64,000 nt of DNA from Hyphomicrobiales bacterium (lineage in GTDB: Bacteria > Pseudomonadota > Alphaproteobacteria > Rhizobiales > RI-29). Both the position numbers and the translations under genes were made by a program. Below the pieces are notes generated by a model. It ran no database searches. It was not told the DNA's origin and saw only the letters and a program-made list of their open reading frames with translations. How positions within the stretch are numbered: the stretch's first letter is position 1; every line of letters starts with the position of its first letter. The DNA lies in the NCBI GenBank assembly GCA_016125495.1, contig WGLQ01000035.1, positions 1-64,000 of the forward strand. The letters run 5' to 3'. Below are positions 251 to 50,338 of the stretch, in pieces.

Positions 251-1831
251 TCAATGGAAGGCGTCGGGCATCGATTGCTTGCGAGTGGCAACGAACGCAT
301 CGATCGCCTCGGCAATGCCGGGGTCGATCGCGGGGGCCTCGTAGCTCGCCAGCCACTCGCGCGCGATGGTGTTGGCTCGCTCCTCGACGCGCTTGCGGCC
401 TTCCGCCTCCCACTGCTCGAACGAATTGTTGTCCGCGACAATGGAACGATAGAACGCGGTCTCGAAATTCGCCTGGGTATGGGCGCAGCCGAGATAGTGC
501 GCTCCCGGACCGACCTCGCGGATCGCGGACATCGCCTGCCCGTTCTCGCTGAGATCGACGCCCGCCGCGAAGCGCTGCATCATGGCCAGCTGGTCGACGT
601 CCAGGATGAACTTGTCGTAGCTCGAGACGAGCCCGCCCTCGAGCCAGCCGGCGGCGTGCAGGACGAAATTGACGCCCGCGAGGAGCGTCGGCATGAGTGT
701 GTGCGCGCTCTCGAAGGCGGCCTGAGCATCCGGCACCTTGGAGCCGCAGAGCGAGCCACCCGAACGGAAGGGGACGTTCAGCCGTCGGGCGAGCTGCGCG
801 GCTCCGAAGAGAACCAGCGAGGGCTCGGGCGTGCCGAAGGTCGGGGCGCCGGACTGCATGGAGATGGAGCTTGCGAAGGTGCCGAAGACGACTGGCGCGC
901 CCTTGCGGCAGAGCTGGGCGAAGGCCATGCCGGCCATTGCCTCGGCGAGGATCTGCGTCAGGGTGCCGGCCACGGTGACGGGCGACATGGCGCCAGCGAG
1001 GATGAAGGGGGAAATGACGGTCGCCTGGCCGGCGCGGGCGTAGACCTTGAGGGCGCCGACCATCGTTTCGTCGTAGACCATCGGCGAGTTGGCGTTGATG
1101 AGATTGATGATGCAGCAGTTGGCATCGAGGAAGTCGGCGCCGAACACGAGCCTGGCCATCTCGACGGTGTCGGCGGCACGCGAGGGGTGCGTCACCGAGC
1201 CCATGAAGGGTTTGTCGGACCGCTTTATGTGCGCGGCCACCATGTCGAGATGGCGCTTGTTCACCGGGATGTCGACCGGCTCGCAAACCGTGCCGCCCGA
1301 ATGGTGCATCGCAGGCGCCATGTAGGCGAGCTTGACGAAATTCTGAAAATCCTCGAGGCGCGCATAGCGGCGCTCACCCTCGAGATCGCGCACGAAGGGC
1401 GGGCCATAGACCGGCGCGAAGACGGTGGCATTGCCGCCGATCTGCACGGAGCGCTCCGGGTTACGGGCGTGCTGGATGAACTGGCGCGGGGCATGGGCGA
1501 TGAGCGAGCGGGCGAGGCCGCGCGGCATGTGCACGCGGGCGCCGCGCACGTCAGCACCAGCCTCCTTCCAGAGGTCGAGGGCTTCGGGATCGTCACGGAA
1601 CTCGATGCCGATCTCCTCGAGGATCGTTTCGGCATTCGCCTCGATGAGGGTCAGCCCCTCCTCGGACAGCACTTCGAATGGGGCCATGGCGCGGCGGATG
1701 TAGCCGAACTGCTCGCCAGAGCCGCCGCCACGCCGCTGTGCGCGTCGTGCCTGGGCGCCGGAGCCACCCGGGCGTGCGCGGCGACGGCGCTCTCCTGCGC
1801 CCGAGGTTTCGGATTCCGGCTGATCGGTCAT
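251..1831 (-). CDS. MttB-family (non-pyrrolysine) methylamine:corrinoid methyltransferase
   Basis: A 526-residue protein of the trimethylamine methyltransferase (MttB) family. Family members move a methyl group from a tertiary or quaternary amine to the cobalt of a corrinoid protein. The frame has no in-frame amber codon, so it belongs to the non-pyrrolysine branch, which includes the glycine-betaine enzyme MtgB; its own substrate cannot be read from the sequence. Residues 10-37 are a low-complexity Arg/Gly/Ala tail before the folded domain begins near FGYIRRAM. The start is the ATG at 1831, with GGAG nine bases upstream; the open frame reaches back to 2017 without another convincing site. 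It is divergent from the corrinoid-protein gene, separated by a 400-bp regulatory region. Confidence 0.9.
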   Translation of the reverse strand: MTDQPESETSGAGERRRRARPGGSGAQARRAQRRGGGSGEQFGYIRRAMAPFEVLSEEGLTLIEANAETILEEIGIEFRDDPEALDLWKEAGADVRGARVHMPRGLARSLIAHAPRQFIQHARNPERSVQIGGNATVFAPVYGPPFVRDLEGERRYARLEDFQNFVKLAYMAPAMHHSGGTVCEPVDIPVNKRHLDMVAAHIKRSDKPFMGSVTHPSRAADTVEMARLVFGADFLDANCCIINLINANSPMVYDETMVGALKVYARAGQATVISPFILAGAMSPVTVAGTLTQILAEAMAGMAFAQLCRKGAPVVFGTFASSISMQSGAPTFGTPEPSLVLFGAAQLARRLNVPFRSGGSLCGSKVPDAQAAFESAHTLMPTLLAGVNFVLHAAGWLEGGLVSSYDKFILDVDQLAMMQRFAAGVDLSENGQAMSAIREVGPGAHYLGCAHTQANFETAFYRSIVADNNSFEQWEAEGRKRVEERANTIAREWLASYEAPAIDPGIAEAIDAFVATRKQSMPDAFH

Positions 1832-2231
1832 CTCTGCACACTCCAAGTGCTGCGGTCGCTGCCAATGCTGTGGTCGGGGTCGCGGCGCCAATCGAGGGCG
1901 GGGGTCCGTCTTGCCGAAGTGCCATGCGATCCGACTGTCGAGCCGAGCTAACCCGAGTATTCCGGTCCACAGATGTCCTGCGTCGCCAGCCAAGCGGCTG
2001 GAAGCGACATGCCCCACTCGGATCGAACGGAGTGCGCTGGCTCCTCCAGCCGCTGTTCACCGCACCAGGCGATTGTTCGAAAACGCATTTTTCCCTGCCG
2101 GTGTGTCGTGGGCCCGATCCCGCCCGTCGCAACCGGCACAACAAGGCGTCGCTTCCAGTATCGCCTCGCCAAGGCATTCGCTACATTACTCGCCACCGGC
2201 CCATCAATTCGCGACCCTGGAGGTCCAACAC
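1832..2231. promoter_or_regulatory. divergent promoter region of the corrinoid methyltransferase locus
   Basis: A 400-bp non-coding stretch between the divergent MttB-like and corrinoid-protein genes. It must hold both promoters. A relatively AT-rich patch near 2065-2100 and another near 2160-2200 are the likeliest promoter positions. No convincing consensus boxes, riboswitch or operator palindrome was seen by eye. Confidence 0.4.
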
Positions 2232-2930
2232 ATGTCCGACGACGATATCGTGCTCGCGGAGCTGTCCGACGACGAACTCGTGCTGCAAATGCACGACGAC
2301 CTCTACGACGGTCTCAAGGAGGAGATCGAAGAGGGGACGCGCATCCTGCTGGATCGCGGTTGGACACCTTACAAGGTGCTCACCGTGGCTCTGGTGGAAG
2401 GCATGCGGATCGTCGGGGAGGACTTCCGCGATGGCATCCTGTTCGTGCCGGAGGTGCTGCTCTCGGCCAACGCCATGAAGGCGGGCATGACGATCCTGCG
2501 GCCGCTGCTGGCGGAAACCGGTGCGCCCAAGGTCGGCAGCATGGTGATCGGCACGGTGAAGGGCGACATCCACGACATCGGCAAGAACCTCGTCGGCATG
2601 ATGCTGGAGGGCGCCGGGTTCGACGTGTACGACATCGGGATCAACAACCCGGTCGAGAAATATCTCGAGGCCATCGAGAAGCACAAGCCGGACATCATCG
2701 GCATGTCGGCGCTGCTGACCACGACGATGCCCTACATGAAGGTCGTCATCGACACGCTGCGCGAAAAGGGCATGCGCGACGATTTCACGGTGCTCGTCGG
2801 CGGCGCGCCGCTCAACGAGGAATTCGGAAAGGCGATCGGCGCGGATGCCTATTGCCGCGACGCGGCGGTCGCGGTCGAGACGGCCAAGGCCTACATGGCG
2901 CGCAAGCACAACCGGATGTCCGGATCGTGA
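2232..2930 (+). CDS. corrinoid (B12-binding) methyl-carrier protein, MttC/MtbC type
   Basis: A 232-residue two-domain corrinoid protein. Residues 1-95 form the helical methionine-synthase-type cap, and residues 96-230 the Rossmann-like B12 domain. The cobalt-ligand motif GDIHDIGKNLV is at 111-121, with His114 as the expected lower axial ligand. The protein would accept the methyl group from the MttB-like enzyme and hand it to the methyltransferase encoded at 4767. Length and domain order match MttC/MtgC/MtbC proteins. The start at 2232 is supported by a strong GGAGG about eight bases upstream; the longer open frame back to 1911 is not needed. A strong hairpin follows the gene. Confidence 0.93.
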   Translation: MSDDDIVLAELSDDELVLQMHDDLYDGLKEEIEEGTRILLDRGWTPYKVLTVALVEGMRIVGEDFRDGILFVPEVLLSANAMKAGMTILRPLLAETGAPKVGSMVIGTVKGDIHDIGKNLVGMMLEGAGFDVYDIGINNPVEKYLEAIEKHKPDIIGMSALLTTTMPYMKVVIDTLREKGMRDDFTVLVGGAPLNEEFGKAIGADAYCRDAAVAVETAKAYMARKHNRMSGS

Positions 2931-2987
2931 TCCAGGACCGAAGCCGGCCGGTGCGGGGCCGCCTCCATCAGCCGCCAGAATGCAAGG

Positions 2988-3024
2988 CGCCCACCGGAAC
3001 AACCGGTGGGCGTTGTCGTTCTGG
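2988..3024 (+). terminator. hairpin terminator after the corrinoid-protein gene
   Basis: A perfect 10-bp inverted repeat CGCCCACCGG (2988-2997) and CCGGTGGGCG (3003-3012) around a five-base AACAA loop, followed by a moderately T-rich stretch (TTGTCGTTCT). It sits 58 bp past the stop of the corrinoid gene and before the convergent bactofilin gene, so it could end transcription from either side. Confidence 0.7.
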
Positions 3025-3072
3025 GCGAGGTTGGTGGCGGACAAGTCTGGCAGGTCACCGCGACCTCGCCCG

Positions 3073-3675
3073 TCAGCGTCGCGGCGCACTCTCCTCGGTG
3101 GCCATCGAGACGTAGCTCGTCACCGTCCGCTCGCCTGGGCGGGTGTCCTGGAGCAGGCCCGTCGGATCGCCGCCGCGCTCGCGGTCCCAGCGAAGGGTGC
3201 CCTCGTAGTGGGTGCCCATCTCCATGCCGATACCCTGGTGGATGATATCGCCTTCGACGCGGGCCGTGCGGTGGAGCATCACGCTGCGGCCGCGCACGGT
3301 ACCGGAGACGCGACCGTAGATTTCGACCGTGTCGCCCTCGATGCTGCCGAGCACATTGCCGTCCTCGGAGATGGTCACCGAGCCGCCCTGGACGTCTCCG
3401 GCGACCGTGCCCTCGAGCCGCAGGCCGCGCTCGGTGCGTACGTTGCCCTCGATGGTGATGTCGGACGTGATGACCGCCTCGCTTGCCGGTTCGCCAGCGG
3501 GCAGGCCGGATCGTGGGCGAAGAAAGCTCTGGGCCCGCGAGAGCGAGGCGATGGCGGCACGCCCATCGCCCTCCCGATCGTGGTCGCGCTCACGATCACG
3601 CTCGCGCTCCCTTTCCGCCGTGTACGTTTCATTGCCCCGATCGCTCGAGCCATTCCTTCGGCTGAAGACCTGCAT
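3073..3675 (-). CDS. bactofilin (polymer-forming cytoskeletal protein)
   Basis: A 200-residue bactofilin. Bactofilins polymerise into membrane-associated filaments that help organise the cell envelope. Residues 1-65 are a charged, Arg/Glu/Asp-rich disordered segment. Residues 68-150 are the right-handed beta-helix, with regularly spaced short strands (ITIEGNVRTERGLRLEG, VTISEDGNVLG, VEIYGRVSGTVRG). A short polar tail follows. The ATG at 3675 has GGGGAG seven bases upstream. The gene lies on the opposite strand inside the corrinoid locus, between the corrinoid protein and DUF1638 genes, and has no obvious functional link to them. Confidence 0.9.
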   Translation of the reverse strand: MQVFSRRNGSSDRGNETYTAERERERDRERDHDREGDGRAAIASLSRAQSFLRPRSGLPAGEPASEAVITSDITIEGNVRTERGLRLEGTVAGDVQGGSVTISEDGNVLGSIEGDTVEIYGRVSGTVRGRSVMLHRTARVEGDIIHQGIGMEMGTHYEGTLRWDRERGGDPTGLLQDTRPGERTVTSYVSMATEESAPRR

Positions 3676-3869
3676 CTATCTCCCCAAGTCGCAGCCGTGC
3701 GATTTGAAGATGTCACCGCGATCCCGCAGTCGGACTTTGGTCACGCGAGAGGGCGGTATTGTGGCTACAACATGTGCGATCAGCGGCGATTGACGCGCCG
3801 GGCGGCGATTGCGACAACGGCCCGGCTTGCGGCGGCGCTCCGGAGCGCTTTGCGGAGAGGGAAATGTCG

Positions 3870-4664
3870 ATGAACGAAGGCGAGAGCGTAACGGGTGAGG
3901 CGGAGGGTGTTCACTCCCCGGTGATCCCGGAGGGGTTCCGCTATCGACGTGACGGCGTGCTCGCGGAGGGGCGCGTGCTGGTGATCGCGTGCGGCGCGAT
4001 CGCCAAGGAGATCATCGCCGTGGTCGAGGCAAACGACTGGCGACACATGGAAATCGCTTGTCTACCGGCGATCTGGCACAACCGGCCCGAGAAAATCCCC
4101 GAGGGCGTGCGCGAGAAAATCCGCGAGGCCAAGGCCAGCGGCCGCTACAGCGCCATCCTGGTCGGCTACGGGGACTGCGGAACCGGCGGCCTCCTCGACA
4201 AGGTCCTGGCCGAGGAAGGCGGCATCGAGCGGCTCCCGGGTGACCACTGCTATGCCTTCTTTTCCGGCACGCGGCAGTTCGAAGAGACCTTCGCCGGGGA
4301 GATCGAGACCTTCTATCTCACGGATTTCCTGGTGCGCCAGTTCGACGCCATGATCTGGCGGGGCCTCGGGCTCGCCAAGCATCCGGAATTGCGCGACATG
4401 TACTTCCACAACTACCGCAAGCTCGTCTATCTGGCGCAAACCGACGACCCGGACCTCGATCGCCGTGCCGAGGAGGCGGCCGAGCGCCTCGCACTGCCGC
4501 TCGAAATCCGACGGACCGGGTACGGTGACCTGGTCGGCTCGCTCGGCGGGCTCGCCGGAAAGGGCCAGACGCCGCCAGCACGGTTACCCAGGACCGGGCG
4601 CGTCGGTTTCCAGACACCAGACGTCGTCAGCGAGCAACCACCGAACCAGCGGTCGGGCGATTGA
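3870..4664 (+). CDS. DUF1638 protein of the corrinoid methyltransferase locus
   Basis: A 264-residue DUF1638 protein. The family has no established function, but its genes commonly sit beside MttB-type methyltransferase and corrinoid-protein genes, as here. Conserved Cys/His-containing blocks are visible: LVIACGAIAKEI, CLPAIWHNRPEKIP, GYGDCGTGGLLD and GDHCYAFF. They suggest a bound metal or cofactor, which is an inference. The C-terminal 40 residues are Pro/Arg-rich and probably disordered. Two ATGs compete (3864 and 3870); the second is preferred because the GGAGAGG element lies nine bases before it. It is followed after about 100 bp by the methyl-THF transferase gene. Confidence 0.85.
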   Translation: MNEGESVTGEAEGVHSPVIPEGFRYRRDGVLAEGRVLVIACGAIAKEIIAVVEANDWRHMEIACLPAIWHNRPEKIPEGVREKIREAKASGRYSAILVGYGDCGTGGLLDKVLAEEGGIERLPGDHCYAFFSGTRQFEETFAGEIETFYLTDFLVRQFDAMIWRGLGLAKHPELRDMYFHNYRKLVYLAQTDDPDLDRRAEEAAERLALPLEIRRTGYGDLVGSLGGLAGKGQTPPARLPRTGRVGFQTPDVVSEQPPNQRSGD

Positions 4665-4766
4665 GGTGGTCAGGCGATCGTCGCCGCCCTCGAAATGGGC
4701 TGGCAGGACGCTCGCAAGGCTCTCGCTTCGCGCCACGCCGCGCCCGATCCACCAGAAGGCTCGACC

Positions 4767-5699
4767 ATGACCCGCACGCTCGTCGCCTCCGCGCGCAAGG
4801 AAATCCACATCGGTTTCGATCAGCCGTTCTGCGTCATCGGTGAGCGCATCAACCCGACGGGGCGCAAGAAGCTCGCGGCCGAAATGCAGGCCGGCGACTT
4901 CTCGACGGTGGAGGCGGACGCGCTTGCACAGGTCGCGGCCGGTGCCACCATGCTCGACGTGAATGCCGGGGTCACGGCGGTCAACCCGAACGAGACGGAG
5001 CCGCCGCTCCTGCGCAAGACGGTGGAACTCGTGCAGAGCCTCGTCGATGTTCCGCTTTCGATCGATTCATCGGTGCCGGCCGCGCTCGCGGCGGGCCTCG
5101 AGGTTTGCAAGGGTCGGCCGCTGGTCAACTCGGTGACCGGCGAGGAGGACCGCCTCGAGATGGTCCTGCCGCTGGTCAAGAAGTACAACGTGCCGGTGGT
5201 CGCGATCTCCAACGACGAGACGGGCATCTCGATCGATCCGGACGTGCGCTTCGAGGTCGCGCGCAAGATCGTGCAGCGCGCCGCGGACTATGGCATTCCG
5301 GCGCACGACATCGTCGTCGATCCGCTGGTCATGCCGATCGGTGCCATGGGAACGGCCGGTCTCCAGGTTTTCGCCCTCGTGCGCCGGCTGCGCGAGGAGC
5401 TCAAGGTGAACACGACGTGCGGCGCTTCCAACGTCTCGTTCGGGCTGCCGCACCGGCACGGCATCAACGCCGCCTTCCTGCCGATGGCGATCGCCAGCGG
5501 CATGACCTCGGCGATTATGAACCCCTGCCGGCCGCAGGAGATGGAAATGGTGCGCGCCGCCAACGTTCTGATGTCCACGGACGAGAATTGCGCCCAGTGG
5601 ATCCGGATCTATCGCGAACCGGCCGGCGAGGGGGCGGCGCCGGCTGAGGAAGGGCGGCGGCGAGGCGGGCGCCGGCGGCGCGACGGCGAGGCCGCCTGA
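4767..5699 (+). CDS. methyltetrahydrofolate:corrinoid methyltransferase (MtgA/AcsE-like)
   Basis: A 310-residue pterin-binding TIM-barrel protein of the methyltetrahydrofolate methyltransferase family. It would move the methyl group between the corrinoid protein and tetrahydrofolate, connecting amine demethylation to the folate pool. Family motifs include VIGERINPTGRKKL near residue 23, MLDVNAGV, PLSIDSS and NTTCGASNVSFGLPHR. The last 25 residues (after IYREPAGE) are an Arg/Gly-rich low-complexity tail, like those of the MttB-like and activator proteins of this locus. The start chosen is the ATG at 4767 (MTRTLVAS), with a modest GAAGG before it. The activator gene follows 37 bp downstream, so the two are probably co-transcribed. 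Confidence 0.92.
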   Translation: MTRTLVASARKEIHIGFDQPFCVIGERINPTGRKKLAAEMQAGDFSTVEADALAQVAAGATMLDVNAGVTAVNPNETEPPLLRKTVELVQSLVDVPLSIDSSVPAALAAGLEVCKGRPLVNSVTGEEDRLEMVLPLVKKYNVPVVAISNDETGISIDPDVRFEVARKIVQRAADYGIPAHDIVVDPLVMPIGAMGTAGLQVFALVRRLREELKVNTTCGASNVSFGLPHRHGINAAFLPMAIASGMTSAIMNPCRPQEMEMVRAANVLMSTDENCAQWIRIYREPAGEGAAPAEEGRRRGGRRRRDGEAA

Positions 5700-5736
5700 C
5701 GACGAGCGAAGGCCGCCACGAAAGGGATCGAGCGAC

Positions 5737-7818
5737 ATGACGGACGGACCGGTCGAAGGCGGAGCGGGTGCGGTCGCCGAGGCGAGTGCCGACGTGAAGG
5801 ATGCCCTGGTGCTGTTCATGCCGAGCGGGCGGCGCGGCCGGTTCGCGCATGGTACGCCGGTGATCGAGGCGGCCCGCTCGCTCGGGGTCTACATCGAATC
5901 CGTCTGTGGCGGACGCGGCATGTGCGGGCGCTGCCAGGTTTCGGTGGCCGAGGGGCATTTCGCCAAGCACAACGTGACGAGCGCGCGCGACCATCTCTCG
6001 CCGTTCTCCTCCCTCGAAACGCGATACGCGGAAAAGCGCACGCTCGCGGAGGACCGGCGGCTGAGCTGCTCGGCGCTGATCCAGGGCGACCTCGTCATCG
6101 ATATTCCGGCCGAGGTGCAGGTCAACCGGCAGATCGTGCGCAAGAAGGCCGAGGACCGCCACATCCCGCGCGATCCGGCAACGCACCTCTGCTACATCGA
6201 GGTCGACGAGCCGGACATGGAGAATCCCTCCGGCGATGTCGAGCGGCTGCTCGAGGCGCTGACGAGGGAGTGGGGCTTCGAGAAACCGGGTATCGATTTT
6301 CATCTTCTTGCGCGCGCGCAGACGGTGCTGCGGCTCGGAGAATGGAAAGTCACGGTCGCGGTCAACGACGCCGAGGGCGCGCCGCGGGTGATCGCGATGT
6401 GGCCGGGCTTCCACAACGAGGCCTATGGCGTCGCCGTCGACATCGGCTCGACCACGATTGCCTGCCACTTGTCCTCCCTCCTTTCAGGGCGCACGCTCGC
6501 CTCCTCGGGAATCTCGAACCCGCAGATCCGGTTCGGCGAGGACCTGATGAGCCGGGTCAGCTACATCATGATGAACCCGGACGGGCATCAGGCGCTGACT
6601 CGGGCCGTGCGCGAGGCGGTCGCGGGGCTGATCAGCAAAGTGGCCGAGGAGGCCGGAATCTCGGCGGCCGACATTCTCGAAGGGGTTTTCGTCGGCAATC
6701 CGATCATGCACCATCTCTTTCTCGGCATCGATCCGCGCGAACTCGGCGGGGCGCCTTTCGCGCTCGCAACGAACGCCGCGCTCAACTGCCGGGCGAGCGA
6801 CATCGGGCTCGACATCAACGAGGGCGCCAGGGTTTACCTCCTGCCTTGCATCGCGGGCCACGTAGGGGCGGATGCCGCGGGCGCGACACTCACCGAGCAG
6901 CCCTACAATGGCGATGAATTGACGCTCCTGGTCGATATCGGAACGAACGCGGAAATCGTGCTCGGCAACCGTCACCGCATCGTGGCGGCCTCGTCTCCGA
7001 CCGGTCCGGCATTCGAGGGAGCGGAAATCTCGTGCGGCCAGCGGGCCGCGCCCGGCGCGATCGAGCGGGTTCGCATCGATCCGGCAACGCTGACGCCGCG
7101 CGTCAGGGTGATCGGGATCGATGCCTGGTCGGACGAGGCGGAGTTCCTCGAAAAGCGCGAGCAGGTCGGAGTCACCGGGGTCTGCGGCTCCGGCATCATC
7201 GAGGTGATCGCGGAGATGTATCTCGCCGGCATCATTTCGACGGACGGGGTGATCGACGGCAGCAAGGCGGAGCTGAGCGACCGGATCGTGGAGGATGGGC
7301 GCACGTTTTCCTATGTGCTCTGGCGCGGCGATCAGGAACTGCGCATCACGCAGAACGACGTACGCGCGATCCAGCTCGCCAAGGCGGCGCTCTATGCGGG
7401 CGTCAAACTGCTGATGGACCGTATGGGCATCGAAGAGGTGGACCGGGTCAAGCTGGCGGGCGCATTCGGCACCTATATCGATCCCAAGTATGCGATGATC
7501 CTCGGGCTCATTCCCGACTGCAATCTCGACAAGGTGCATTCGGTCGGCAATGCCGCCGGCACCGGCGCGCGCATGGCGCTGCTCAACAAGGGCTACCGGC
7601 ACGAGATCGAGGAGGTCGTGCGGCGGATCGAAAAGGTGGAGACCGCGCTCGAGGCGAAATTCCAGCAGCACTTCATCAATGCCATGGCCTTGCCGAACAA
7701 GGTGGATCCGTTCCCGAGGCTGAGGGCGGCGGTGCCGCTGCCGGAGGCGGCGCCTGCAGCGGGCGGCGACGATGAGGACGGCGGCCGGCGGCGCCGGCGT
7801 GGCGGGCGGCGCGGCTGA
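5737..7818 (+). CDS. ASKHA-family corrinoid activator with N-terminal [2Fe-2S] domain (RACo-like)
   Basis: A 693-residue protein of the DUF4445/RACo group. These proteins use ATP and a reduced iron-sulphur centre to bring inactive Co(II) corrinoid back to Co(I). A plant-type ferredoxin domain occupies residues 25-125, with cluster cysteines 57, 63, 66 and 111 (CX5CX2C...C). A linker follows, then the ASKHA ATPase domain with phosphate-binding motifs GVAVDIGSTTIACHLSS (about residue 229) and LLVDIGTNAEIVLGN (about 397), and late motifs LAGAFGTYIDPKY and VGNAAGTGARMALLN. The C-terminus ends in an Arg/Gly tail (GGRRRRRGGRRG). The gene is the last of the rightward corrinoid operon and converges on the aminotransferase gene. 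Confidence 0.93.
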   Translation: MTDGPVEGGAGAVAEASADVKDALVLFMPSGRRGRFAHGTPVIEAARSLGVYIESVCGGRGMCGRCQVSVAEGHFAKHNVTSARDHLSPFSSLETRYAEKRTLAEDRRLSCSALIQGDLVIDIPAEVQVNRQIVRKKAEDRHIPRDPATHLCYIEVDEPDMENPSGDVERLLEALTREWGFEKPGIDFHLLARAQTVLRLGEWKVTVAVNDAEGAPRVIAMWPGFHNEAYGVAVDIGSTTIACHLSSLLSGRTLASSGISNPQIRFGEDLMSRVSYIMMNPDGHQALTRAVREAVAGLISKVAEEAGISAADILEGVFVGNPIMHHLFLGIDPRELGGAPFALATNAALNCRASDIGLDINEGARVYLLPCIAGHVGADAAGATLTEQPYNGDELTLLVDIGTNAEIVLGNRHRIVAASSPTGPAFEGAEISCGQRAAPGAIERVRIDPATLTPRVRVIGIDAWSDEAEFLEKREQVGVTGVCGSGIIEVIAEMYLAGIISTDGVIDGSKAELSDRIVEDGRTFSYVLWRGDQELRITQNDVRAIQLAKAALYAGVKLLMDRMGIEEVDRVKLAGAFGTYIDPKYAMILGLIPDCNLDKVHSVGNAAGTGARMALLNKGYRHEIEEVVRRIEKVETALEAKFQQHFINAMALPNKVDPFPRLRAAVPLPEAAPAAGGDDEDGGRRRRRGGRRG

Positions 7819-45896: not shown

Positions 45897-47957
45897 ATGG
45901 AAGAGTCGCGGAGAGCGGGAACACGGCCGGCAGGGAGTGATCCGCTTCTGACGCCATTGCGCATCCGTCACCTCGAATTGCGAAACCGGGTGATGAGCAC
46001 GAGCCACGCCTGCGGACTGCACGACGCGGGTATGCCCGGCGAGCGATACCAGAGCTATCACGAGGAGAAAGCGCGCGGCGGGATCGGGCTCACCATGTTC
46101 GGTGGCTCATCGAACGTCGCGCCCGACAGCCCCAATATCTTCCAGCAGCTCAACGTCGGCGTCGATGCGGTCATTCCGCATCTGCAGCGCTTTTCCGAGC
46201 GTGTCCACAAGCACGGCGCGGCCTTGATGTGCCAGATCACGCACCTCGGCCGGCGCGGGGAATCCTATGCCGGCGACTGGCTGCCGACGATTGCACCATC
46301 GCCGATCCGCGAGACGCTGCATCGCTCCTTTCCCAAGGAGATGGACGAGCACGATATCGAGCGCGTGGTGGCGGCCTATGCGGCGGCGGCGGTGCGCTGC
46401 AAGGAGGGCGGGCTCGACGGCATCGAGACGCTGACGGGGGGGCACCTCATCGGTCAATTCCTCTCGCCGATGACGAACAAGCGGAGCGACCGCTTCGGGG
46501 GCTCGCTCGAGAACCGCTGCCGCTTCGGGCTGATGGTCTACGAGCGCATTCGCAAGGCGGTCGGGGACGATTTCCTCGTCGGCATGCGGTTCGTCGTGGA
46601 CGAGGGCGTCGGCGGTGGCCTCGATGGAGAGGAATGCCTGCGGATCGCGACGATCTTCCAGGAGAGCGGACTCGTCGACTTCTTCAATGCCATCTATGGC
46701 CGAATGGATACCGAGCGCGGGCTAGCGCGCGACAACATGCCGGGGATGGATTCTCCGATCGCCCCGTGGGTGAGACCGGTCGGAGAGTTCAAGCGGCATG
46801 TCAAGCTACCCGTCTTTCACGCCGCGCGGATCGCGGATGTCGCCTCGGCGCGTTATGCGATCGCGGAGGGGTTGCTCGACATGGTCGGTATGACGCGGGC
46901 GCAGATCGCCGATCCGCACCTCGTCAACAAGCTTGCATCGGGACGCGAGGAGCAGATCCGCCCTTGTGTCGGAGCGACCCACTGCATGTCGCAATACCGT
47001 CCCTCCTGCCTGCACAACGCGGCGACCGGGCGCGAGACGACGCTCTCGCATACCATTTCCCGTTCGCCACGCGCTGGTCGCAAGGTGGTGGTGGTCGGTG
47101 GCGGTCCGGCCGGGTTGGAGGCGGCGCGGGTCGCGGCCGAACGTGGCCATGGTGTCGTTCTTCTCGAGGCGGCGCCTGCCCTCGGTGGCCAGGTGCGCAT
47201 CGGGGCACAGGGACCTTGGCGTCAGGATCTCATCGGCATCGTCGATTGGCGCCGGGCGGAGCTCGAGAGGCTGGGCGTCGAGGTCAGGCTCGACACCTAT
47301 GCCTCTCGCTCCGACGTGCTCGCGCTTCGCCCCGATGTCGTCGTGGTCGCGACCGGCGGCGTGCCGGACCTGGAGTGGCTCGAGGGCATGGAGCATTGCG
47401 TGTCGGCCTGGGATCTCCTCACGGGCCAGGCGCTCGCGGCGAACAATGTGCTGGTCTACGACGGCACGGGGCGGCATCCGGCGCCGCATGCGGCGGCGCG
47501 GGCGGCGCAAGCGGGCAGCACGGTGTCGCTGGTGACGCTCGATTCCTCGCTGGCGCTGGAACTCACCTATGCCGAGCGGGTCGCCTGGAAGGACCACTGC
47601 TACAAGGCGGGGATCGCCGTCGTGCCCGACCACCGGCTGGTCAAGGTGGAAAAATCCGGCAATCGGCTGATCGCCCATCTCGAAAACCTGGTGACGCAGG
47701 ATGAGCGGGTTCTCGAGGTCGATCAGGTCGTGGTCGAGCATGGCACGCGGCCGGTGGACGAACTCTATGGCGAGCTGCGTGCGGACTCGGTCAATGACGG
47801 AGTGACGGACATCGCGGCGCTCCTTGCCGTCGAGCCGCAACCGCGCAACTACCGGCCGGACGCCGCGTTCGAACTCTACCGCGTCGGTGATGCGGTCTCG
47901 AGCCGCAACATCCACGCGGCCGTCTACGATTCTCTCCGGCTCTGCTCGACCTTCTGA
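45897..47957 (+). CDS. StcD/DgcA-like N-methyl demethylase (OYE + FAD/NAD domain flavoprotein)
   Basis: A 686-residue enzyme of the trimethylamine dehydrogenase/2,4-dienoyl-CoA reductase superfamily. Residues 20-350 are the FMN-binding OYE barrel (SFPKEMDEHDIERVVAAY, RSDRFGGSLENRCRFG). Residues 360-385 carry a cysteine segment, CVGATHCMSQYRPSCLHNA. Residues 395-686 are an FAD/NAD-type domain starting KVVVVGGGPAGLEAARVAA. The cysteine segment and following ATGRE resemble N-methylproline demethylase (StcD) and dimethylglycine demethylase (DgcA), which release formaldehyde or methylene-THF. Only three cysteines are present where TMADH has four. The start at 45897 has AGGAG seven bases upstream. 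Second gene of the rightward operon. Confidence 0.85.
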   Translation: MEESRRAGTRPAGSDPLLTPLRIRHLELRNRVMSTSHACGLHDAGMPGERYQSYHEEKARGGIGLTMFGGSSNVAPDSPNIFQQLNVGVDAVIPHLQRFSERVHKHGAALMCQITHLGRRGESYAGDWLPTIAPSPIRETLHRSFPKEMDEHDIERVVAAYAAAAVRCKEGGLDGIETLTGGHLIGQFLSPMTNKRSDRFGGSLENRCRFGLMVYERIRKAVGDDFLVGMRFVVDEGVGGGLDGEECLRIATIFQESGLVDFFNAIYGRMDTERGLARDNMPGMDSPIAPWVRPVGEFKRHVKLPVFHAARIADVASARYAIAEGLLDMVGMTRAQIADPHLVNKLASGREEQIRPCVGATHCMSQYRPSCLHNAATGRETTLSHTISRSPRAGRKVVVVGGGPAGLEAARVAAERGHGVVLLEAAPALGGQVRIGAQGPWRQDLIGIVDWRRAELERLGVEVRLDTYASRSDVLALRPDVVVVATGGVPDLEWLEGMEHCVSAWDLLTGQALAANNVLVYDGTGRHPAPHAAARAAQAGSTVSLVTLDSSLALELTYAERVAWKDHCYKAGIAVVPDHRLVKVEKSGNRLIAHLENLVTQDERVLEVDQVVVEHGTRPVDELYGELRADSVNDGVTDIAALLAVEPQPRNYRPDAAFELYRVGDAVSSRNIHAAVYDSLRLCSTF

Positions 47958-49447: not shown

Positions 49448-50338
49448 TCAAACATCGGGCATGGCGATGCCGGCCGCGGCGGTCGCGGCCTGGACGGTGT
49501 TGCGCAGGAGGCAGGCGATGGTCATCGGTCCGACGCCTCCCGGAACCGGTGTGATCGCACCGGCCACCTTGGCGGCCTCGTCGTATGCGACGTCGCCGAC
49601 GAGGCGGCTCTTGCCGTCGGCGCCGTCGATGCGATTGATCCCGACGTCGATGACCGTGGCGCCGGGCTTGATCCAGTTGCCGCGCACCATCTCGGCGCGT
49701 CCGACGGCCGCGACCACGAGGTCGCCGCGACGCGTGACGGCGGGCAGGTCGCGGGTCCGCGAGTGGGCGATCGTGACGGTGCAGTTCTCCTGAAGAAGGA
49801 GCTGGGCGACCGGTTTGCCGACGATGTTCGAGCGGCCGATCACCACGGCTTCGAGGCCTGAGAGGTTGCCGAGCGTCTGTTTCGCGAGGATCACACAGCC
49901 GAGCGGCGTGCAGGGCACCAGCGCGGCTTCGCCCGTCGCGAGCCGGCCGGCATTGACCGGGTGGAAGCCGTCGACGTCCTTGGCAGGCTCGATGGCGTTC
50001 AGAACCTTGGTCGAATCGATGTGCTTGGGCAACGGCAACTGCACCAGGATGCCGTGGACATCGGGGTCGGCGTTGAGACGGGCGACGAGGGCGAGCACGT
50101 CGGCTTCGGGTGTCGATGCGTCCAGCTTGTGCTCGAAGGAGGCCATGCCGCAGGCCACCGTCTGGCGCGCCTTGTTGCGCACGTAGACCTGGCTTGCCGG
50201 GTCCTCGCCGACGAGCACCACCGCAAGGCCCGGCTGCAGCCCATGCGCCGCGCGTAGACCCGCAACCGCCTTGCCGATCCGCTCGCGCAAGCCTTCCGCC
50301 ACCGCCTTGCCGTCGATGATGCGTGTTTCAGTCGCCAT
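49448..50338 (-). CDS. folD: methylenetetrahydrofolate dehydrogenase/cyclohydrolase FolD
   Basis: A 296-residue bifunctional FolD. It oxidises 5,10-methylene-THF to methenyl-THF and hydrolyses that to 10-formyl-THF. Catalytic [10 protein letters not shown] (Tyr and Lys), [21 protein letters not shown] and the NADP motif [17 protein letters not shown] are all present, along with the C-terminal [13 protein letters not shown]. The start at 50338 has GAGGGACGGGA upstream and overlaps the end of the DUF167 gene by 11 bp, so it is the third gene of the leftward yggT-DUF167-folD operon. It could process one-carbon units made by the nearby demethylase. Confidence 0.95.

Follow-up and report, generated by a model that had tools for sequence, protein, structure and literature searches.

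How does a bacterium that is very likely aerobic come to carry every step of a corrinoid methyl-transfer pathway, and what does the pathway serve? We consider this question for a 64,000-nt stretch of DNA from a Hyphomicrobiales bacterium (positions 1 to 64,000 of contig WGLQ01000035.1, assembly GCA_016125495.1), which we refer to as "the window". At positions 251–7818, an original prediction made from the sequence had named four genes, encoding an MttB-like methyltransferase, a corrinoid protein, a methyl-tetrahydrofolate (methyl-THF):corrinoid methyltransferase and an activase. All four give strong profile matches, and the outer coordinates coincide with the ends of open reading frames. Domain and family matches bear out the prediction that the steps from methylated donor to methyl-THF are all encoded. 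We conclude that this locus very likely forms the core of an MtgBCD-type hub, a shared system of cobalamin-dependent methyl transfer, with a very probable role in methionine synthesis.

The prediction had also regarded such a pathway as odd in an aerobe. The organism is indeed very likely aerobic, having two matches to the oxidase family PF00115, but the oddity is not supported: MttB occurs in 21 of 86 alphaproteobacterial families (an even draw of 86 genomes, one per family), and the system has been demonstrated genetically in aerobic Ruegeria pomeroyi (PMC12478193). That published work has already resolved the puzzle over oxygen. The prediction left out a DUF1638 gene (normally the fifth component of such a set), a bactofilin gene, the methionine role, nine further MttB paralogues in the genome, and arginine-rich tails shared by several of the enzymes.

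The gene set and its relatives

The locus has the parts of the known MtgBCD-RamA-DUF1638 system, namely an MttB, a stand-alone MtgC, a stand-alone MtgD, and an activase accompanied by DUF1638; on this gene content, it is therefore a member of that system. In the mechanism proposed here, MttB (the candidate MtgB) would methylate Co(I) of MtgC with a group taken from a quaternary amine, by homology most likely glycine betaine. MtgD would then move the methyl group between methyl-MtgC and THF in either direction, as Ruegeria genetics supports for its counterpart. The RamA-like activase would rescue oxidized Co(II), with help from DUF1638.

The individual proteins are consistent with these assignments. 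The MttB frame has no internal stop, and hence no pyrrolysine codon, placing the protein among the non-pyrrolysine type; it scores 269.9 bits against the pyrrolysine trimethylamine methyltransferase model TIGR02369, below the cut-off of 525, and has no in-frame amber. Its closest solved relative is PDB 4yyc (E 2e-260, 74.6% identity), followed by 2qne and 9yce, the last being the Desulfitobacterium hafniense glycine-betaine methyltransferase (E 9e-122, 43.3% identity). In a tree, 4yyc clusters with Sinorhizobium rows, and its N-terminal stretch agrees with that of an annotated Sinorhizobium meliloti protein. MtgC has a cap and a B12 domain and the D-x-H-x-x-G motif, as DIHDIG at residue 112, and falls below the cut-offs of the D. 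hafniense-type MtgC models (178.7 of 310 bits for NF047995; 208.5 of 370 for NF047996). By profile search, the activase, of the 2Fe-2S/ASKHA class, comprises a Fer2 domain with RACo linker, a middle domain and a C-terminal domain. It is below the cut-offs for AcsV (NF040756; 392 of 800) and RamA (TIGR04270; 126.2 of 500), and on these scores is related to both but belongs to a different subfamily.

The gene set recurs in relatives. Among the best 80 of at least 568 GTDB relatives' loci, several of which are short contigs, tblastn matched the corrinoid protein in 74 loci, DUF1638 and the methyl-THF methyltransferase in 70 each, the activase in 64, and a homocysteine methyltransferase of the MtgE type in 57. 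The usual gene order is MttB divergent from mtgC-DUF1638-mtgD-activase. Judged from these sequences, the gene set is conserved and is not a chance association. The same divergent order is found in a Paracoccus aminovorans record. In Azoarcus, a betaproteobacterium, mtgC, DUF1638, mtgD and the activase gene are surrounded by glycine-betaine transporter genes, and in a haloarchaeon the corrinoid, activase, DUF1638 and MtrH genes are clustered. The bactofilin gene was rejected as a part of the hub, since the best 80 relatives gave no tblastn match to it of at least 70 bits.

S. meliloti, whose MttB is ~75% identical to that of the window, has the same order of hub genes and carries tails (see below) on MttB, MtgD and the activase. 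It differs in that bmt (MtgE) and two methylenetetrahydrofolate reductase (MTHFR)-type genes are within the locus, and a glycine betaine/proline ATP-binding cassette transporter gene lies in the same 24.7 kb; the Bmt tail score of 5.5 is below threshold. A small gene annotated as "virulence factor" and two MTHFR-type genes are found between DUF1638 and mtgD in S. meliloti (L221:15948-17918) and Azoarcus (L222:10285-12109); they are possible further parts of the hub that the window's locus lacks.

Ruegeria pomeroyi and Phaeobacter inhibens have the same families for MtgB, MtgC, MtgD, the activase, DUF1638 and MtgE (PMC12478193; PMC5764234). As described there, they are, like the organism studied here, aerobic alphaproteobacteria with several MttB paralogues and no MetE or one-piece MetH found. 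Unlike in them, the window's genes for MttB, MtgC, DUF1638, MtgD and the activase form one group, interrupted by a bactofilin gene, and MtgE and the only MetF-like gene lie outside the locus. The genome has ten MttBs, versus up to seven reported for marine bacteria (PMC12478193). D. hafniense MtgABC (PDB 2qne and 9yce) resembles the window in MttB-superfamily sequence, in predicted substrate contacts and in its three-part corrinoid logic; however, D. hafniense is an anaerobe, and the 9yce chain aligns from residue 5, leaving no room for an N-terminal tail in the construct. Eubacterium limosum, in which many MttBs (MtpB, MtcB, MtyB and others) are said to use one core corrinoid protein (PMC12478193), is an anaerobic acetogen.

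DUF1638 follows MttB across the class. In the sample of 86 families, DUF1638 is present in 19, and all 19 of these genomes hold MttB (Fisher p 4e-17); the two MttB genomes without DUF1638 (G006 and G062) have MttB fragments only. Each of the 19 genomes has one DUF1638 match, versus 1 to 15 MttB matches, some of them fragments, and counting from coordinates places an MttB within 10 kb of DUF1638 in 10 of the 19. These patterns fit best with DUF1638 belonging to the hub itself rather than to any single substrate branch. Fitness data from Phaeobacter tie it to the activase and to methionine synthesis (PMC5764234). Cysteines 43, 66, 105 and 129 are invariant in 30 DUF1638 sequences. An attempt to read function from the fold was abandoned: the AlphaFold2 model is good (predicted local distance difference test [pLDDT] 79.8), and its matches are generic, with several alpha/beta folds tied (best VIA Z 9.3, root-mean-square deviation 2.4 over 101 residues) and no Foldseek match at E ≤ 0.001. 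The best match of the DUF1638 profile to PDB sequences has an E value of only 0.0085.

Features of the locus are collected in Table 1. A riboswitch was considered for the divergent promoter and rejected, as Rfam at the gathering threshold matched only a tRNA in the window and nothing in the mttB/mtgC intergenic region. Elsewhere in the window are genes for FolD (49448-50338; NF010785, 493 bits) and for an old-yellow-enzyme-type flavoprotein (45993-47957), which matches the same families as a protein encoded beside the MttB of contig C2.

Table 1. Positions of genes and sequence features at the corrinoid locus of the window
Feature	Position	Strand	Support
MttB-superfamily methyltransferase (candidate MtgB), 526 aa	251..1831	-	PF06253 771.8 bits
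Arg/Gly-rich N-terminal tail of MttB, residues 13-38	1718..1795	-	score 7.0
Divergent mttB/mtgC intergenic region, 400 bp	1832..2231	.	GGAGG precedes mtgC ATG
MtgC-type corrinoid (cobalamin-binding) protein, 232 aa, isoelectric point (pI) 4.65	2232..2930	+	PF02607 57.7, PF02310 96.7 bits
Acidic MtgC N-terminus, residues 1-35, net charge -13	2232..2336	+	
Bactofilin gene (PF04519)	3073..3675	-	between mtgC and DUF1638
DUF1638 protein	3864..4664	+	PF07796 105 bits
MtgD-type methyl-THF:corrinoid methyltransferase	4767..5699	+	PF00809 100.3 bits; NF005719 404.7, cut-off 259
Arg/Gly-rich C-terminal tail of MtgD, residues 296-310	5652..5696	+	score 9.0
RamA/RACo-like reductive activase, 2Fe-2S domain, 693 aa	5737..7818	+	PF14574 309.7, PF17651 163.9, PF17650 95.3, PF00111 24.3 bits
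Arg/Gly-rich C-terminal tail of activase, residues 678-693	7768..7815	+	

Probable methionine synthesis and candidate methyl donors

Profile searches of the organism's own genome found 10 MttBs, 4 RACo-type activases, 3 PF00809 proteins and 1 DUF1638. PF02607 corrinoid proteins number only three, in frames of 244, 368 and 295 aa, and MtgC of the window type is single copy. The same searches gave no match to the MetE domain PF01717, and a one-piece MetH was not found, no PF02607 frame being longer than 368 aa. Because neither a MetE domain nor a one-piece MetH was found, it is very probable that the cell's methionine is made by MtgC and MtgD working with an MtgE from another part of the genome, and the hub is probably the genome's methionine synthase. 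Candidates for MtgE are the two PF02574 proteins, both of which exceed the NF005718 (betaine-homocysteine methyltransferase) cut-off and retain the GGCCGT cysteines, which we take to bind zinc. Having an MtgE but neither MetE nor a one-piece MetH is usual, though not universal, for aerobic Proteobacteria with this hub. In 55 of 57 loci, the PF02574 protein of contig C27 is the better match to Rhizobiales MtgE. For the S. meliloti protein, the betaine-homocysteine methyltransferase name has been reinterpreted as MtgE (PMC12478193).

Published genetics bears directly on the two roles of the hub. According to the R. pomeroyi study, mtgC and mtgD mutants are methionine auxotrophs and are unable to use glycine betaine for growth even when methionine is supplied; MtgC and MtgD act in the demethylation of glycine betaine as well as in methionine synthesis, the latter with the homocysteine methyltransferase MtgE; and MtgB candidates, MtgC, MtgD, RamA and DUF1638 proteins all increase on such osmolytes (PMC12478193). 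In Phaeobacter, the defects of the corresponding mutants are reported to be rescued by methionine (PMC5764234).

Contig C7 holds two further corrinoid clusters (L103:2993-7856 and L104:767-8144), each with a URO-D-type methyltransferase, a corrinoid protein and an activase, and one with a CobW-type GTPase. They are possible O-demethylase or halomethane-type systems. A candidate free-standing MetH-activation domain on the same contig (L104:8920-9603) was dropped, having no Pfam match.

Glycine betaine appears, from sequence comparison, to be the likeliest substrate of the window's MttB. Among the ten MttBs of the genome, this protein is nearest to D. hafniense MtgB (43.3% identity; next 39.0%). 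Docking predicted that Y94, N199, R309 and H345 of D. hafniense MtgB contact glycine betaine (PMC6855144), and all four are retained in the window's MttB and in one other of the ten. It is this proximity, together with the four predicted contacts, that makes glycine betaine the first choice. Tree-based assignment of the substrate was tried and is not decisive, the tree being midpoint-rooted, supported by SH-aLRT alone, and built without the Ruegeria chromosomal MtgBs and the Eubacterium enzymes.

Other methylated compounds probably enter the same hub through the remaining MttB paralogues. On contig C27 (L105:7459-15678), an MttB gene is found with a dimethylglycine-dehydrogenase-like gene, a cupin of the dimethylsulfoniopropionate-lyase family PF16867 (61 bits), threonine dehydrogenase, glycine C-acetyltransferase and the MtgE gene. 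The paralogues on C6 (L106:4806-10217) and C2 (L112:3335-13859) adjoin dihydrodipicolinate-synthase-like and flavin adenine dinucleotide-oxidase genes, in the company of an aldehyde dehydrogenase on C6 and of sarcosine oxidase and related genes on C2; these neighbors fit the breakdown of hydroxyproline betaine or proline betaine. On C4 (L113:3952-10872), a divergent MttB (26%) is near a sulfoacetaldehyde acetyltransferase gene and, by eye, an alanine-dehydrogenase-like gene, and its substrate could be an N-methylated taurine. Taken together, the paralogue neighborhoods suggest that various betaines are channeled into a single hub.

Several observations weigh against parts of this account. The genome assembly (4.05 Mb in 36 contigs) is 99.35% complete, and absences are therefore not absolute. 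The sole PF02219 match for MTHFR is weak (26.4 bits, cut-off 24; C7:14644-15177), and both MtgE and MetF are encoded outside the window's locus, unlike in S. meliloti. The nine Rieske-type PF00848 matches in the genome, two of which are perhaps one gene, would leave open an oxygenase route for glycine betaine. The glycine-betaine contacts themselves are docking predictions, and in the midpoint-rooted tree the main clade of alphaproteobacterial MttBs does not include D. hafniense MtgB. Close to the predicted site of the window's MttB, I349 is replaced by Trp and F353 by Gly. It is also the C27 and C14 paralogues, and not the window's MttB, that adjoin dimethylglycine-dehydrogenase-like genes, which a glycine-betaine enzyme might have as neighbors. 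With regard to the weak MTHFR gene, we note separately that it adjoins the second pterin-binding methyltransferase gene, and that similar proteins occur in 9 of the best 80 loci, several immediately upstream of mtgD.

These observations can be set against two different readings of the locus. The original prediction pictured a pathway devoted to the catabolism of a single amine, which would have no part in making methionine, and the parts of such a pathway are all adjacent. The lack of matches to PF01717 and to a one-piece MetH, the two MtgE-type proteins, the Ruegeria auxotrophy (PMC12478193) and the methionine-rescued Phaeobacter mutants (PMC5764234) all argue for the methionine role instead, and we consider the single-amine pathway improbable. 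A second reading keeps the hub and gives the window's MttB another quaternary or sulfonium substrate (proline betaine, a carnitine-type compound, or others), leaving glycine betaine to a paralogue such as that of C27. Substrates do vary within the MttB superfamily (PMC12155760; PMC12478193); the C27 gene has the dimethylglycine-dehydrogenase-like neighbor and is near the MtgE gene, and the changes at I349 and F353 of the window's enzyme are near the predicted site. However, the window's MttB is the nearest of the ten to D. hafniense MtgB and keeps the four predicted contacts, which the C27 protein does not (Y94 is Ser), and it is the window's type that is linked to hub genes in relatives. We therefore regard a different substrate as rather unlikely, and retain glycine betaine as the likeliest donor for a hub that very probably also makes methionine.

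Arginine/glycine-rich tails and an acidic corrinoid protein

Four enzyme families of the hub carry Arg/Gly-rich tails. The tail is N-terminal in MttB (...GERRRRARPGGSGAQARRAQRRGGG...) and C-terminal in MtgD (...EEGRRRGGRRRRDGEAA), the activase (...DDEDGGRRRRRGGRRG) and the MtgE of contig C27 (...SDRRRGRRGRG). To count them, we used a score devised after the tails had been seen, equal to R + 0.5 G in 14 residues near either end of the protein; the threshold of 7 was set after inspection of the own genome and was then left unchanged for Rhizobiales loci and for the hub regions of 18 other genomes. Seven of the top 9 scores among 247 proteins from stretches of the own genome belong to hub enzymes, the window's activase being highest. 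In the own genome, 6/10 MttBs reach the threshold, compared with 3/225 other proteins; judged by eye, and with an upstream ATG taken as the start, 9/10 MttBs have an Arg-rich stretch ahead of the domain. The activases of the two C7 clusters have no tail at threshold.

The distribution is similar in relatives. In Rhizobiales loci, which are related and whose tail counts are not independent events, the threshold is reached by 76/81 MttBs (all N-terminal) and by 58/63 MtgDs, 46/47 activases and 23/57 MtgEs (all C-terminal), versus 0/71 MtgCs, 0/69 DUF1638 proteins and 9/880 others. The hub regions of the 18 other genomes give 9/9 for MttB, 9/9 for MtgD, 10/10 for the activase and 3/4 for MtgE, versus 0/16 for MtgC, 1/18 for DUF1638 and 2/183 for others. 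Start choice affects the MttB counts: they are 60/81 with codon-model starts versus 76/81 with extension to upstream ATGs in Rhizobiales, and 6/9 with first-ATG starts versus 9/9 with extension in the hub regions. The extension was applied to the controls too, which rise from 2/881 to 9/880. For 40 MttBs of many subfamilies from 15 other genomes, 24/40 have tails by the first-ATG rule, and 35/40 by a start-free rule of at least 5 Arg in 14 residues, a rule that has no control set. Among NCBI-annotated proteins, those at threshold include MttB, MtgD and the activase of S. meliloti and Paracoccus, MtgD and the activase of Azoarcus, and MttB of Leisingera; below it are the Ruegeria megaplasmid MttB (5.5), the Cereibacter MttB (6.5) and the haloarchaeal set. 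None of 35 neighbors reaches the threshold, these having been hand-picked from three records with short and cut ones omitted.

The tails also share sequence patterns, both of which are post hoc and drawn from the same data. G[GRAS]x[AGSR]RRxxR occurs near an end in 80/91 MttBs, 34/51 activases, 7/65 MtgDs, 1/59 MtgEs and 0/1105 other proteins (one has it away from the ends), and GGRxAR in 52/65 MtgDs, 12/91 MttBs and 0/1105 others. A G-A-x-A-R-R-x-x-R core is invariant in 12/12 aligned MttB orthologues. Arg codons are mixed in the window's three tails, which argues against simple repeat slippage. An AlphaFold model of MttB, with pLDDT below 50 for residues 1-54, was dropped as proof of tail disorder, since the model as a whole is of low quality (mean 56.5, 12 sequences).

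The tail carriers are the enzymes that must reach the cobalamin of MtgC; MtgC itself and DUF1638 have no tails, apart from the one DUF1638 of 18 that scores. MtgC is acidic, its orthologues having a median pI of 4.49 (n = 63). In a separate post hoc test in Rhizobiales loci, a net charge of −10 or lower over the first 35 residues was found for 70/72 MtgCs, 3/81 MttBs and 0/881 others. Over the same stretch, the genome's other two corrinoid proteins carry −6 and −8. The simplest reading of these features, which we offer as a hypothesis, would be that clients dock electrostatically on a single corrinoid protein that they share. In this scheme, the tails form a docking code with which MttB paralogues of differing substrate class (N-terminal) and MtgD, RamA and MtgE (C-terminal) would reach the acidic N-terminus of the single MtgC, and the tails and that N-terminus may thus mediate recruitment. 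We put the scheme at somewhat below an even chance, and propose as tentatively that the docking element, short and basic, might in MttB be about G-[G/R/A]-x-A-R-R-x-x-R.

Docking must be weighed against a reading in which the tails do not bind MtgC at all: they may interact with a polyanion such as RNA or polyphosphate, serve solubility or localization, or be neutral, low-complexity termini encoded by GC-rich genes. Nucleic-acid binding is the best-known property of RGG/RG segments, and attachment to a polyanion is a reasonable alternative. Acidity is not specific to MtgC, since the genome's other two corrinoid proteins are also acidic overall (pI 4.94 and 4.90), and MtgE tails are often weak, fewer than half being at threshold. 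Neutral drift, by contrast, does not explain why the tails are restricted to enzymes that visit MtgC, with so few among the other proteins of all three sets, nor the mixed Arg codons, nor the invariant MttB core. It also does not explain why, in the own genome, the ends of the second MtgE, the second pterin methyltransferase and the other three activases stay below threshold. Taken as a whole, the non-docking reading has, in our judgment, close to an even chance. The tails are unmentioned in the main texts of PMC12478193 and PMC5764234 (by term search) and in a wider literature search, with subscription papers and supplements outside its scope. The combination of matching tails and an acidic hub looks new; the remainder of the locus is mostly explained by the 2018 and 2025 publications.

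The locus confirms and extends the system described in 2018 and 2025, and the tie between a single-copy DUF1638 and MttB across families makes the role of DUF1638 testable. If docking is correct, new methyl donors would be added by placing a tail on a methyltransferase, with no need for another corrinoid partner to evolve. Docking would explain how a single corrinoid protein can, under air, serve numerous MttBs (up to 15 matches in one genome, some of them fragments) as well as methionine synthesis. It would also provide a sequence test for the hub membership of orphan MttBs, and a simple tag with which to engineer methyl donors into central metabolism. Aerobes would then possess a tag-based, multi-client methyl hub linking the breakdown of many methylated compounds directly to the synthesis of methionine.

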